Assembly (NCBI GenBank): GCA_902785135.1
Contig: CACZXL010000003.1
Location: forward strand, 1-64,000
DNA length: 64,000 bases
Source: an uncultured Erysipelotrichaceae bacterium
Lineage (GTDB): Bacteria; Bacillota_I; Bacilli_A; RF39; UBA660
Reading direction: 5' to 3'
The position numbers and the translations under genes were made by a program. Shown here one piece after another: positions 59,335-62,661 of the stretch; positions within the stretch are counted from its first letter, which is position 1; every line of letters starts with the position of its first letter. Below the pieces are notes generated by a model. It searched no databases. It was not told where the DNA came from and saw nothing but the letters and a program-made list of their open reading frames with translations.

Positions 59335-60720
59335 ATGAAAAAGAGAGAATATGTAATGAAAAAAATATGTGTTTTTGTGTTATCTACTTTTTTATCTGGA
59401 TCTATATATGCCATAAAAAAAGGTGCAGATTTAACTGAAAAAGTGGCTACTGTTCCTTTAGATATACGTAATGAATTATATTATGATAATATTCTAGATA
59501 GTGATAAATATTTAGAATACTATGGTAGAGAATTATCAGATGGTACATATATTAATAAAGCTACTAATACTAATAAATTAGTTGATAGATATGTTACTTA
59601 TGAAAAATTAGAAAAACTAGAAGAAGCAGATATTCATATGAATATAACAAAAGATATGTCTTTTTTAGAAAAATGTCCTAATTTAAAAACTTTAAATATA
59701 TTTAATTCAGAATTATTAACAGATGAAGATATAGAATTAATAAATAATTCTAATTTAGATAAAATTGTATTATCATTTGATTATAAAAATATAAGAAATA
59801 ATAGAGAAAATAAATTTGACATCAGTAGATTTAAAAAAGATGTAGTTATTAATAATAGTCTTTATTCATTTTTAGATGATTTAGATCAATTAGTATTTTA
59901 TAATTATTTTGTTAATAAAAATGATGATATCTTTATTGATAAAAATAATCTTGAATCTATAAAATCTATGGATAATTATTTAAATGAAGTTATAGATGAA
60001 TATGATATAAAAAACGCAAAAGATGATAAAGAAAAAGTTTTATTAATATCTGATTATATATGTAGTACTTTAAGTTATGACAAAGAAGTAAGTGATAGTA
60101 TAAGAGAATATACTAATAATTTAATAGAACAAGAAAAGAATACATATGAACCTACTGAAAAAAGTGAAGAATATAATTATAATTCTATTTCTTCAATTGT
60201 TAATCAAGATTCAGAAAAGAAAGACGGAATTTGTATAAATTATGCATCTTTATTTGATATTATGTGTTATAAAACAGGTGTTAAATCTAGAAAAGTAGAA
60301 GGAATAGATACTAGTGTTAATATAGGTCATGCATGGAATATAGTATATATAGATGGAAAGAAAGAATTTGTTGATCTAACATTTTTTGATAATGATTATA
60401 GAGAAGAAATGTTAAAAAAATATAATAAGTATAAATCTGAAGATGATTATAATTATTTAACATTTATGTTATTTCAAGATATAGATGATAGTTATACTGA
60501 TTTTAATATTATCCCATCACTAGATTCATTAGATAAAAAAATTGAAAAAGAAAATGTATATGTAGTTAATAACACTTTAGACGGTTTAAACCTAATAAAT
60601 GAAACTCCATCATTATCAAAACTAGCGTTAATATCAGTTTTAGGTGGATTATCTACTACAATATTAGAAGAAATTTTATATAGAAGAAAGAAAAAGAAAA
60701 AAGTATTAAAAACTAGTTAA
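59335..60720 (+). CDS. Membrane-anchored transglutaminase-like protein
   Basis: 461 aa, SD GGGAGGTG. N-terminal signal/anchor (~10-27), an LRR-like stretch (~95-150; LEKCPNLKTLNIFNSELL) and a transglutaminase-like core: KDGICINYASLFDIMCYKTGV (Cys300), NIGHAWNIVYIDGKKEFVDLTFFD (His332, Asp347). A C-terminal TM (~432-448) with RRKKKKK ends it. It may cut or cross-link surface proteins or peptidoglycan; a purely structural role cannot be excluded. The triad is intact. Terminator directly after. Confidence 0.82.
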   Translation: MKKREYVMKKICVFVLSTFLSGSIYAIKKGADLTEKVATVPLDIRNELYYDNILDSDKYLEYYGRELSDGTYINKATNTNKLVDRYVTYEKLEKLEEADIHMNITKDMSFLEKCPNLKTLNIFNSELLTDEDIELINNSNLDKIVLSFDYKNIRNNRENKFDISRFKKDVVINNSLYSFLDDLDQLVFYNYFVNKNDDIFIDKNNLESIKSMDNYLNEVIDEYDIKNAKDDKEKVLLISDYICSTLSYDKEVSDSIREYTNNLIEQEKNTYEPTEKSEEYNYNSISSIVNQDSEKKDGICINYASLFDIMCYKTGVKSRKVEGIDTSVNIGHAWNIVYIDGKKEFVDLTFFDNDYREEMLKKYNKYKSEDDYNYLTFMLFQDIDDSYTDFNIIPSLDSLDKKIEKENVYVVNNTLDGLNLINETPSLSKLALISVLGGLSTTILEEILYRRKKKKKVLKTS

Positions 60721-60733
60721 TCTAGTTTTTTTT
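60708..60733 (+). terminator. Terminator
   Basis: AAAAACTAG/CTAGTTTTT, TTAAT loop, T run. Confidence 0.85.
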
Positions 60734-60734
60734 C

Positions 60735-60763
60735 TTGACTTTGATAATTATAATTGTTAAAAT
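60735..60763 (+). promoter_or_regulatory. Promoter of leader-peptide/ABC exporter unit
   Basis: TTGACT (60735-60740), 17 bp, TAAAAT (60758-60763); same hexamers and spacing as both T-box promoters. Confidence 0.85.
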
Positions 60764-60783
60764 TAACATGAATTTAAAGAGAA

Positions 60784-60870
60784 AGGAGTGAAAACATGAA
60801 GATAGTTTTATATTTATTTTATTTGTTTATAGTTAGTAAGAAGAATAAGAGTGAATATGTTTTTACTCCT
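60784..60870 (+). promoter_or_regulatory. Long-range hairpin sequestering leader SD and AUG
   Basis: AGGAGTGAAAACATG (60784-60798) can pair with TATGTTTTTACTCCT (60856-60870): about 15 bp with two G-U pairs, closing over the leader ORF. It would hide the SD and start codon when no ribosome is moving through the ORF. Confidence 0.75.
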
Positions 60871-60885
60871 GTTTTTGCTTGCTAA
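60796..60885 (+). CDS. 29-aa leader peptide (attenuator ORF)
   Basis: 29 codons, ATG 60796, stop TAA 60883-60885, with a strong SD AAAGGAGTG 5 nt upstream. The peptide is hydrophobic at the start (MKIVLYLFYLFIVS), then basic (KKNK), then SEYVFTPVFAC. The stop codon overlaps the first bases of the terminator stem at 60884-60903, so a ribosome at or near the end would block terminator formation. The ABC exporter follows at 60931. The layout is that of ribosome-mediated attenuators such as Bacillus bmrB-bmrCD; a type I toxin-like peptide is a less likely alternative. Confidence 0.75.
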   Translation: MKIVLYLFYLFIVSKKNKSEYVFTPVFAC

Positions 60886-60908
60886 CTACTAGAAATAGTA
60901 GTTTTTTT
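60884..60908 (+). terminator. Attenuator terminator before ABC exporter
   Basis: 8-bp AACTACTA/TAGTAGTT around GAAA, followed by a T run; its 5' arm includes the stop of the leader peptide. Confidence 0.85.
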
Positions 60909-60930
60909 AATGGAAAAAAGAGGTGATTAT

Positions 60931-62661
60931 ATGAAAAACTTTAAAGAATTTAAACCAATTCTTAATTTATTAAAAGAAGAAAAAAAGAAATTTATATTCT
61001 TTTGTATATTATTATTAATTGTTGAATCAACATCTATTTTTTCTGGATATTTAAATGGTGCGGCAGTAGAAGAAATAACTAATTTAAATTTAGATAGATC
61101 ATTATTCTATTTATTTATATATTTCTTATATTCTTCATTCTTTAGTGGAGCATTAATGATTTATGCTTCTAATGGACTTGTTAAACTAGAAAGTAGATTA
61201 ACAAGAAGAATAGGATATGAAGCTTATTCTAAAGCACTTAGTTTACCGGCATATGCATATGAAAAAATGGCATCTGGTGAAATAATAAATAGAATAACAA
61301 CAGATTCTGATGCATTATCATTTACTTTAAGAAGATTAATATCTGCTTTTGGTGAAATAATCGCTGCGTTCATATTAATATTTTATATATTCTATAATTC
61401 TTGGATTATAGGAGTAGAAATAATAATTATAATGGCAGTATTATTTGTTATTATGCATTATTTTAATCCAAAAATGAAAGACGCACATTCAAAAAGAAAG
61501 AAAGAACAAGATAAGTTTACTTCTTTAGTAACAGAATCAGTTAGAGGAATTAGAGAAATTAAGACACTTGGTATTAGAAATAATCTATTAACTGAAATGA
61601 AAGAAATAATAGAATTATTATATAAAAAGTCTGTTGATGAAACTAATTTAGATATTAAATTTAATATAATAACAAGAATATTAAGAGTAACTATGGAAGT
61701 AGGAGTATTCGCAACATGCGCAGTACTTTTATATCAAAAATCAGTATCTCTAACATTCTTTATCGCAATGACATATTATATTTATAGATATATGTATATG
61801 ATTGATAATATAGCAGATTTAAATCAAACATATCAAAAAGTAACAGTTGCGCTTGGAAGAATAAATGAAATTGTTTTAAATAAGAAATTTGAAGATGAAA
61901 AATATGGTGATATATCTCTTAAAAAAGTAGAAGGTATAGTAGAATTTAAAAATGTTACATTTGGATATCCTGATGAAGGAGATATTCTTAAGAACTTTAA
62001 TCTTAAATTAGAACCACATAAAAAGATAGCGGTAGTAGGTAGATCAGGTCAAGGTAAATCTACATTATTTAATCTTTTAACAAGAGTTTTTGATGTTAAA
62101 AAAGGTTCTATAACATTAGATGGAGTAGATATTAAAGATTTAGATGAAACCACTTTAAGAAAGAATATATCAATAATTAGACAAGAACCATTTATATTTA
62201 ATAGAACTATTAAAAATAATTTTAAAATTATTAATAAAAAGATAACATTAAATGATATTAAAAAGTATAATGAAATGGCATACTTAGATGATTATATTTC
62301 ATCTTTACCAAAAGGATATAATACATTATTAGGGGAAGGCGGAGTGAACCTTTCTGGTGGTCAAAAACAAAGATTATCAATTGCAAGAACTTTAACAAAA
62401 GATACAAAGGTAATTCTATTTGATGAAGCTACTTCTGCACTTGATAACAATTCGCAAGAATTTATAAAAAAGACTATTGATAACTTAGTAAAAGATCATA
62501 CAGTTGTTATAGTCGCACATAGACTATCAACTATTATAGATGCAGATATTATATATGTAGTAGAAGGTGGAAAAATAGTTGGAGAAGGAACACACGAAGA
62601 ATTATTAAAAACAAATAAAATTTATAAAAACTTATATCAAACTGAATCTTTAAATTCATAA
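60931..62661 (+). CDS. ABC exporter, fused TMD-NBD
   Basis: 576 aa from ATG 60931 (SD AGAGGTG); ATG 60910 has none. Six TM helices (~20-300; e.g. FIFFCILLLIVESTSIFSGYL) then an ATPase: Walker A GRSGQGKST, Q-loop IIRQEPFIF, signature LSGGQKQRLSIARTL, Walker B VILFDEATSALD, switch VAHRLST. A half transporter that would act as a homodimer, of the multidrug/lipid/peptide exporter type. Placed behind a leader-peptide attenuator, which favours a drug- or ribosome-stress-induced exporter. Confidence 0.93.
   Translation: MKNFKEFKPILNLLKEEKKKFIFFCILLLIVESTSIFSGYLNGAAVEEITNLNLDRSLFYLFIYFLYSSFFSGALMIYASNGLVKLESRLTRRIGYEAYSKALSLPAYAYEKMASGEIINRITTDSDALSFTLRRLISAFGEIIAAFILIFYIFYNSWIIGVEIIIIMAVLFVIMHYFNPKMKDAHSKRKKEQDKFTSLVTESVRGIREIKTLGIRNNLLTEMKEIIELLYKKSVDETNLDIKFNIITRILRVTMEVGVFATCAVLLYQKSVSLTFFIAMTYYIYRYMYMIDNIADLNQTYQKVTVALGRINEIVLNKKFEDEKYGDISLKKVEGIVEFKNVTFGYPDEGDILKNFNLKLEPHKKIAVVGRSGQGKSTLFNLLTRVFDVKKGSITLDGVDIKDLDETTLRKNISIIRQEPFIFNRTIKNNFKIINKKITLNDIKKYNEMAYLDDYISSLPKGYNTLLGEGGVNLSGGQKQRLSIARTLTKDTKVILFDEATSALDNNSQEFIKKTIDNLVKDHTVVIVAHRLSTIIDADIIYVVEGGKIVGEGTHEELLKTNKIYKNLYQTESLNS

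Follow-up and report, generated by a model that had tools for sequence, protein, structure and literature searches.

The ABC exporter gene at 60931-62661 is preceded by a leader which quite probably acts as a ribosome-mediated transcription attenuator of the exporter, built of three mutually exclusive helices and reading the position of the ribosome, not the peptide. The window, i.e. the whole stretch of 64,000 nucleotides analysed, belongs to a 1.09-Mb genome in 27 contigs. The helices are named P1 (anti-antiterminator), P2 (antiterminator) and T (terminator), and the features of the locus are as follows.

59335-60720, + strand: upstream neighbour of 461 aa with a transglutaminase-core domain, PF01841 (domain match)
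60709-60733, + strand: putative terminator of the upstream gene, AAAACTAG TTAAT CTAGTTTT followed by T's (from sequence)
60735-60763, + strand: sigma-A-type promoter TTGACT-N17-TAAAAT with TG before the -10 (sequence and promoter call)
60770-60781, + strand: conserved RNA 5' end GAATTTAAAGAG (comparison of leaders)
60782-60790, + strand: Shine-Dalgarno (SD) of the leader ORF, AAAGGAGTG (sequence; strongly kept in relatives)
60784-60798, + strand: 5' arm of P1, SD through AUG, the anti-antiterminator or SD lock (pairing, covariation)
60796-60885, + strand: leader ORF of 29 codons, MKIVLYLFYLFIVSKKNKSEYVFTPVFAC (frame conserved, peptide not)
60830-60847 and 60849-60855, + strand: 5' side of the antiterminator P2, outer part (core UAGUUAGUAA) and inner part (folding, partner swap)
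60856-60870, + strand: 3' arm of P1, leader-ORF codons 21-25 (pairing, covariation)
60862-60888, + strand: 3' side of the antiterminator P2, overlapping the P1 3' arm and the T 5' arm (folding, partner swap)
60884-60908, + strand: intrinsic terminator T, 60884-60891/60896-60903 and then a U-run (hairpin search)
60931-62661, + strand: ABC exporter of about 576 aa from ATG 60931 (ABC_membrane and ABC_tran domains)

The initial annotation of this DNA had named four of these elements, the promoter, the 29-codon ORF, P1 and a terminator with the stop codon in its 5' arm, and all four were recovered in place. The occlusion of the SD and AUG by the 3' end of the ORF was found exactly as drawn, with P1 forming 15 continuous pairs. 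Its helices P1 and T were correct, while the antiterminator P2 at 60830-60888 had been missed. The 5' arm of T begins within the leader stop codon UAA (60883-60885), and the 5' end of the leader RNA is predicted from the promoter at about 60770. The terminator-like hairpin of the upstream gene sits directly 5' of the leader promoter. The segment GAATTTAAAGAG, with which the leader RNA is predicted to begin, is present in most leaders (L001-L059) and belongs to none of the helices P1, P2 and T; a standby site, 5'-end stability and polymerase pausing are its possible roles.

The exporter was placed in the ABCB/MsbA type by sequence comparison and shows Walker A GRSGQGKST, LSGGQ and Walker B VILFDE motifs. 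Its start is probably ATG 60931 and not ATG 60910 (583 aa), because the SD GAGGTGAT precedes ATG 60931. It stands as a single gene with mscL next downstream, and the two-gene BmrC/BmrD pair is absent at the locus. The nearest named relatives of the exporter come from uncultured Bacilli whose genomes were assembled from the gut of cattle, sheep and rabbit, the 'Lapin' isolates being presumed rabbit-derived from their name alone. The exporter probably pumps drugs or toxic compounds. Exporter frames with an early or internal TAA were observed in L003 and L007 (1480-1512), and in L007 the TAA lies within a poly-A stretch, about 11 codons past the first ATG; in these two cases either translation starts further on or the gene is decaying.

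To follow the leader in relatives, exporter orthologs were collected by protein search in 60 relatives, 291 genomes of the family, 288 genomes of the order and named MAGs. The full architecture was found upstream of 42 of the 88 orthologous exporters with readable upstream regions, within one family of uncultured gut Bacilli. The upstream regions of the other 46 fail the architecture rule, and as a few of them resemble diverged leaders, 42/88 is a lower bound. On held-out orthologs the unchanged rule recovered the architecture in 7 of 36 (3/3 in the nearest clade), while it appeared in none of 720 shuffled held-out loci and nowhere on the antisense strand. Among 34 short SD-preceded ORFs in the window, P1 and T are both present at the leader ORF alone, which together with the 0/720 shuffled loci argues that the leader is not a chance arrangement. 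The attenuator with a leader ORF, proposed from the single sequence as the control of the ABC exporter, gained support from the 42 orthologs. On the exporter tree, leader presence required 5 changes vs 11.8 with shuffled labels, so the leader appears to be inherited with the exporter, with several losses or gains. The source genome has a single copy of the 5'UTR block GAATTTAAAGAGAAAGGAGTG, every match with two or fewer mismatches lies upstream of an orthologous exporter, and outside its own family the block was absent from 247 genomes drawn from the class. A dedicated promoter is a common feature of the leaders, with TTGAC at the -35 in 41/42 and a distance of 24-36 nt, mostly 32-33, from the end of the -10 to the ORF. 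A hairpin followed by U's is present in 39/42. A scan of the window at Rfam 15 gathering scores returned one tRNA only and left the leader unmatched; matches by E-value to microRNA families and others were rejected as they fell far below the gathering scores.

The pairing of the helices was analyzed next to their conservation. P1 has a duplex energy of -19.8 kcal/mol, and P2 ranks first in significance among the local folds (-26.9 kcal/mol, z -6.2, 0 shuffles as good). Since the 3' side of P2 is common to the P1 3' arm and the T 5' arm, the three helices are alternatives, and P1 and P2, which are crossed helices, were handled as mutually exclusive. In a partner-swap test the SD region of each leader was paired with the 3' region of every other leader, and P2 was treated likewise. 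The summed energy of P1 was -770.8 for native partners vs -528.6 (sd 16.6) for swapped ones, and that of P2 was -308.8 vs -224.5 (sd 10.1). In both cases 0 of 20,000 permutations reached the native value, so that the covariation which the initial annotation had suggested looking for in orthologs was indeed found. The test is conservative because swapped partners include close relatives and receive the same register optimisation. The end of the leader ORF pairs with its own SD in 42/42 leaders, e.g. GAGUGGGAAA with UUUCCUGUUC in L031, GAGUGAGAAA with UUUCUCAC in L008, GAGUGAAAAC with GUUUUUACUC in L001 and GAGUGUUAUAG with UGUAACACUC in L107. P2 is formed by GAUAAUGAC/GUCAUUAU in L016, AGUGGCUAU/AUAGUCAC in L014 and GGUAGUU/AACUACC in L031.

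A block alignment of 29 leaders gave a P1 covariation score of 0.607, compared with 0.271 after shuffling and 0.10-0.21 after sliding, and both partners vary at 12/16 pairs; the P1 registers of this alignment were chosen for pairing, and therefore the swap test carries the weight. RNAalifold on the MAFFT whole-leader alignment recovered T only and not P1 or P2. The MAFFT alignment misplaces the P1 3' arm by 4-5 columns, and for this reason the block alignment and swap test were used and no covariance model. The pair count in one ungapped register was rejected as a poor discriminator, 77% of the non-native combinations reaching 12/16, because a purine-rich SD meets U-rich RNA and G-U pairs are allowed.

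The frame of the leader ORF is kept among relatives while its peptide is not. In 17 leaders chosen by the 5'UTR with no ORF requirement, codons 2-19 of the leader frame contain 0 stops in 17/17, against 39 and 64 stops in the other two frames; shuffled sequence remains open in 9%. Eight pairs of relatives gave a pN/pS of 1.6 overall and 3.05 in codons 2-10, which sit upstream of P2 and of the P1 3' arm, and the substitutions at codon positions 1/2/3 were 51/34/52. As the substitution numbers are small, the claim made here is limited to an absence of purifying selection. ORF length varies from 22 to 41 codons across the family. The 42 leader peptides have no residue or motif in common, and a conserved arrest peptide of the ErmCL or TnaC kind was not found in the leaders. 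An open frame with a free peptide therefore suggests that the ORF is most likely translated, but as a track that would report ribosome position, the peptide sequence not being the sensor. Selection on the frame but not on the peptide would also separate ribosome-position sensing from nascent-peptide arrest.

The ending FTPVFAC, for which the initial annotation had expected conservation, is similar in the nearest relatives only (L001, L002, L006, L007 and L011), where the P1 and P2 RNA arms dictate the residues; it is not a conserved peptide motif, and C-termini elsewhere are unrelated (HFPVL, LYSHDF, FHDFNIG). The FTPVFAC end is thus most likely the coding face of two RNA arms. With a pN/pS of 1.6 and no conserved residues outside the closest clade, the idea of the peptide as sensor was not borne out. 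The ORF is not conserved at the codon level, an outcome the annotation had listed as speaking against it; this removes the peptide-sensing version and not the attenuator.

Two further readings of the ORF bear on the same peptide data. If the peptide were the cargo of the exporter, as a signal peptide or bacteriocin, the hairpin would be a mere intercistronic terminator. A small hydrophobic ORF directly 5' of an ABCB-type exporter would suit this, and the family matches include NHLP and bacteriocin exporters. However, the sequence is unconserved, the N-terminal hydrophobicity and C-terminal Cys are not common to the leaders, the exporter has no peptidase domain and the ORF end pairs with its own SD in every leader, which makes this reading very improbable. 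Equally improbable is an amino-acid-starvation attenuator of the trp/ilv type, which would sense a run of codons for a given amino acid. Its helix logic does match that of trp-type attenuators, but the 42 leaders have no residue in common and no amino acid is enriched at the control position, where K, N, F, I and L occur as AT-rich sequence would lead one to expect. Its target would also be a biosynthetic operon, whereas here an exporter is controlled.

The attenuator read from the arrangement of the helices would operate through ribosome position. P1 would join the SD and AUG of the leader ORF to the ORF end, and P2 the mid-ORF sequence (about codons 12-17) to the 5' side of the terminator. 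With no ribosome at the start, P1 is predicted to form, exclude P2 and lock further initiation, leading to T and the OFF state. A freely moving ribosome in the ORF would cover the P2 5' arm, and T would again form (OFF). If instead a ribosome were held at the start or within the first few codons (1 to about 5), P1 would stay open and the P2 5' arm accessible, and P2, formed before T is complete, would let RNA polymerase through to the exporter (ON). With the ORF's own SD/AUG as an anti-antiterminator arm, read-through would therefore be restricted to RNA on which a ribosome has stalled during initiation or in the first codons; termination in vivo is presumably brought about by T.

This logic was simulated by folding the leaders with a 31-nt ribosome footprint moved along the ORF, where equilibrium folding and the footprint size are simplifications. 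In the source leader the probability of T was 0.82 without a ribosome, 0.10-0.15 with the ribosome at codons 1-3, 0.44 at codon 5, 0.88 at codon 8, and 0.96 at codons 9-19 (0.94-0.96 over codons 9-20). A ribosome at codons 1-5 abolishes P1 and increases P2 in the folding. Leaders were called switch-like when T was high without a ribosome and with one in mid-ORF, and low with one at codons 1-5; 41% of 39 leaders were switch-like vs 1% of 468 shuffled controls. At the point when the T 5' arm has just emerged, its engagement with the ORF was 0.67 with the ribosome at codon 3 (controls 0.23) and 0.03 at codon 14. Between about a quarter and a third of the 39 leaders retain T with a ribosome at the start in the nested equilibrium fold, and these would therefore need kinetic trapping of P2 or work otherwise. 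In L006, L007, L074 and L084, T is not strongly favoured without a ribosome. In the source leader P1 plus T is close in energy to P2, hence the uninduced state may be leaky.

Stalling at codons 21-29, proposed initially as the trigger, was not supported. In the simulation the source leader keeps T at 0.60-0.95 with the ribosome at codons 21-25, and T is clearly lowered at codons 1 to about 5. The related possibility is that nascent-peptide arrest near the C-terminal codons 21-29 (SEYVFTPVFAC) turns on the exporter in an ErmCL- or TnaC-like manner. The stop codon does lie within the T 5' arm in the source leader and its nearest relatives, T falls to 0 at codons 27-30 of the source leader as the ribosome covers T itself, and the FTPVFAC end is similar in the five leaders named above. 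The lowering of T at the extreme C-terminal codons is confined to the L001 subgroup, where T overlaps the stop codon and a ribosome slow to leave the stop would therefore also block it. Against arrest stand the peptide free of purifying selection, the unrelated C-termini elsewhere and the fact that the residues in common are those encoded by the P1 and P2 arms. The start of T also ranges from -18 to +33 nt relative to the leader stop, out of reach of a ribosome there in many members; most relatives have T downstream of the stop codon, frequently at a distance of at least 10 nt. The 5' arm of P2 begins at a median of 37 nt past the AUG, just outside the footprint of a start-held ribosome. Both distances point to the start of the ORF and not its end as the sensing site, and C-terminal arrest is accordingly judged unlikely.

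For the position-reading attenuator, the signal is likely an inhibited initiation or early elongation, e.g. by ribosome-targeting antibiotics, and the inducing stalls are predicted from the start to about codon 5. It is possible, at somewhat less than even chance, that the family consists of peptide-agnostic sensors of ribosome dwell at the start codon which answer any early-acting translation inhibitor. If so, empty RNA and RNA with a moving ribosome would both terminate and the peptide context would be irrelevant. The same RNA switch might instead read any slowing of translation, whether through starvation, (p)ppGpp or low initiation, with the exporter in a stress or housekeeping role. The lack of a drug-specific codon context in codons 2-9 (Ala 0.3%, Thr 2.1%) and the presence of the macrolide motif [KR]x[KR] in only 12/42 leaders would fit this, and (p)ppGpp also influences vmlR (PMC9226507). 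But the ribosome-free switch is predicted to be OFF, so a plain lack of initiation would not induce, and the exporter as the sole target found fits drug-resistance leaders; this wider signal is considered rather improbable. The conserved exporter family would be a candidate for intrinsic antibiotic tolerance in the host bacteria.

The logic is best read as that of known ribosome-mediated attenuators of the vmlR/bmrB/rli53 kind. At the sequence level a short ORF with SD and AUG lies between promoter and terminator; covariation and folding point to the terminator, an antiterminator on its 5' arm and a ribosome-displaceable anti-antiterminator. In bmrB-bmrCD of B. subtilis, lincomycin-inducible expression needs leader translation (Reilman et al. 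2014, PMC4191407). Nucleotides 60-162 of bmrB contain the three structures, and what the anti-antiterminator does was left open (PMC4191407). The parallel drawn with it in the initial annotation is sound, as in both cases an ABC exporter is preceded by a leader ORF together with an anti-antiterminator, an antiterminator and a terminator. The present leader differs in that the anti-antiterminator is formed with the ORF's own SD/AUG, AbrB control is not seen and one exporter gene replaces the bmrCD pair. In vmlR of B. subtilis, a ribosome stalled at the uORF prevents the anti-antiterminator (AAT) and frees the antiterminator (AT) (PMC9226507), the same AAT/AT/T logic. However, the vmlR uORF has three codons (MIN) and lies in the AAT bulge, whereas here the ORF has 22-41 codons and its SD/AUG forms one AAT arm; the second, translational layer of vmlR on the main SD is not seen here. 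The cplR leader of C. difficile and lmo0919/rli53 of Listeria have three-codon uORFs and ABC-F type targets (PMC10201436, PMC8079631). Both share antitermination upon ribosome stalling, and cplR also shares a 5' hairpin which sequesters the uORF in the repressed state, while the present family is set apart by its long ORF, which is unconstrained in sequence, and by a membrane exporter as target. Like vmlR and bmrB, the ribosome-mediated attenuators rli80-hflXr and rli53-lmo0919 are tested precedents of the logic, and a further one, rli59-lmo1652, controls a gene also described as an ABC transporter.

Start-codon stalling has precedents as well. In toiL-topAI of E. coli, tetracycline or retapamulin stalls the ribosome at the toiL start codon (PMC12121999), so that this uORF too responds to ribosomes held at the start; it differs in governing downstream SD access leading to Rho termination, without an intrinsic terminator switch. 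Termination in the DUF1127 leader of Sinorhizobium meliloti is relieved when tetracycline stalls ribosomes at the start codon (PMC12218461). Its uORF of 29 aa with an RBS paired to its own codons is similar to the present leader, but termination is probably Rho-dependent, the RBS pairing leads to ON and not OFF, and an antiterminator/terminator pair is lacking. Compared with the open-access literature, the family-wide use of the ORF's own SD/AUG as an anti-antiterminator arm, and a long ORF conserved in frame without its peptide, are new as judged from comparative sequence evidence. The result is a family of leaders that Rfam lacks and in which two alternative helices covary strongly; its hosts are uncultured gut Bacilli, represented here by metagenome-assembled genomes only.

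Some orthologs depart from the pattern. The absence of the ORF or helices from orthologous loci, which the initial annotation would have counted against the attenuator, does occur in some orthologs, few of them in the closest clade. L003, a close ortholog with 67% identity, has no leader and shows a plain promoter-like stretch before the exporter. L039, L042 and L107 possess P1 and the ORF with no terminator detected, and L040 has the ORF and the SD-occluding helix with a doubtful hairpin only as terminator. The leader stop of L107 is about 17 nt 5' of the exporter start, hence translational coupling may have replaced attenuation there. L074 and L084 carry a differing 5'UTR, GTTTTAGGAGGGATA, with P1/P2/T logic alike, and their leaders are either far diverged or convergent.
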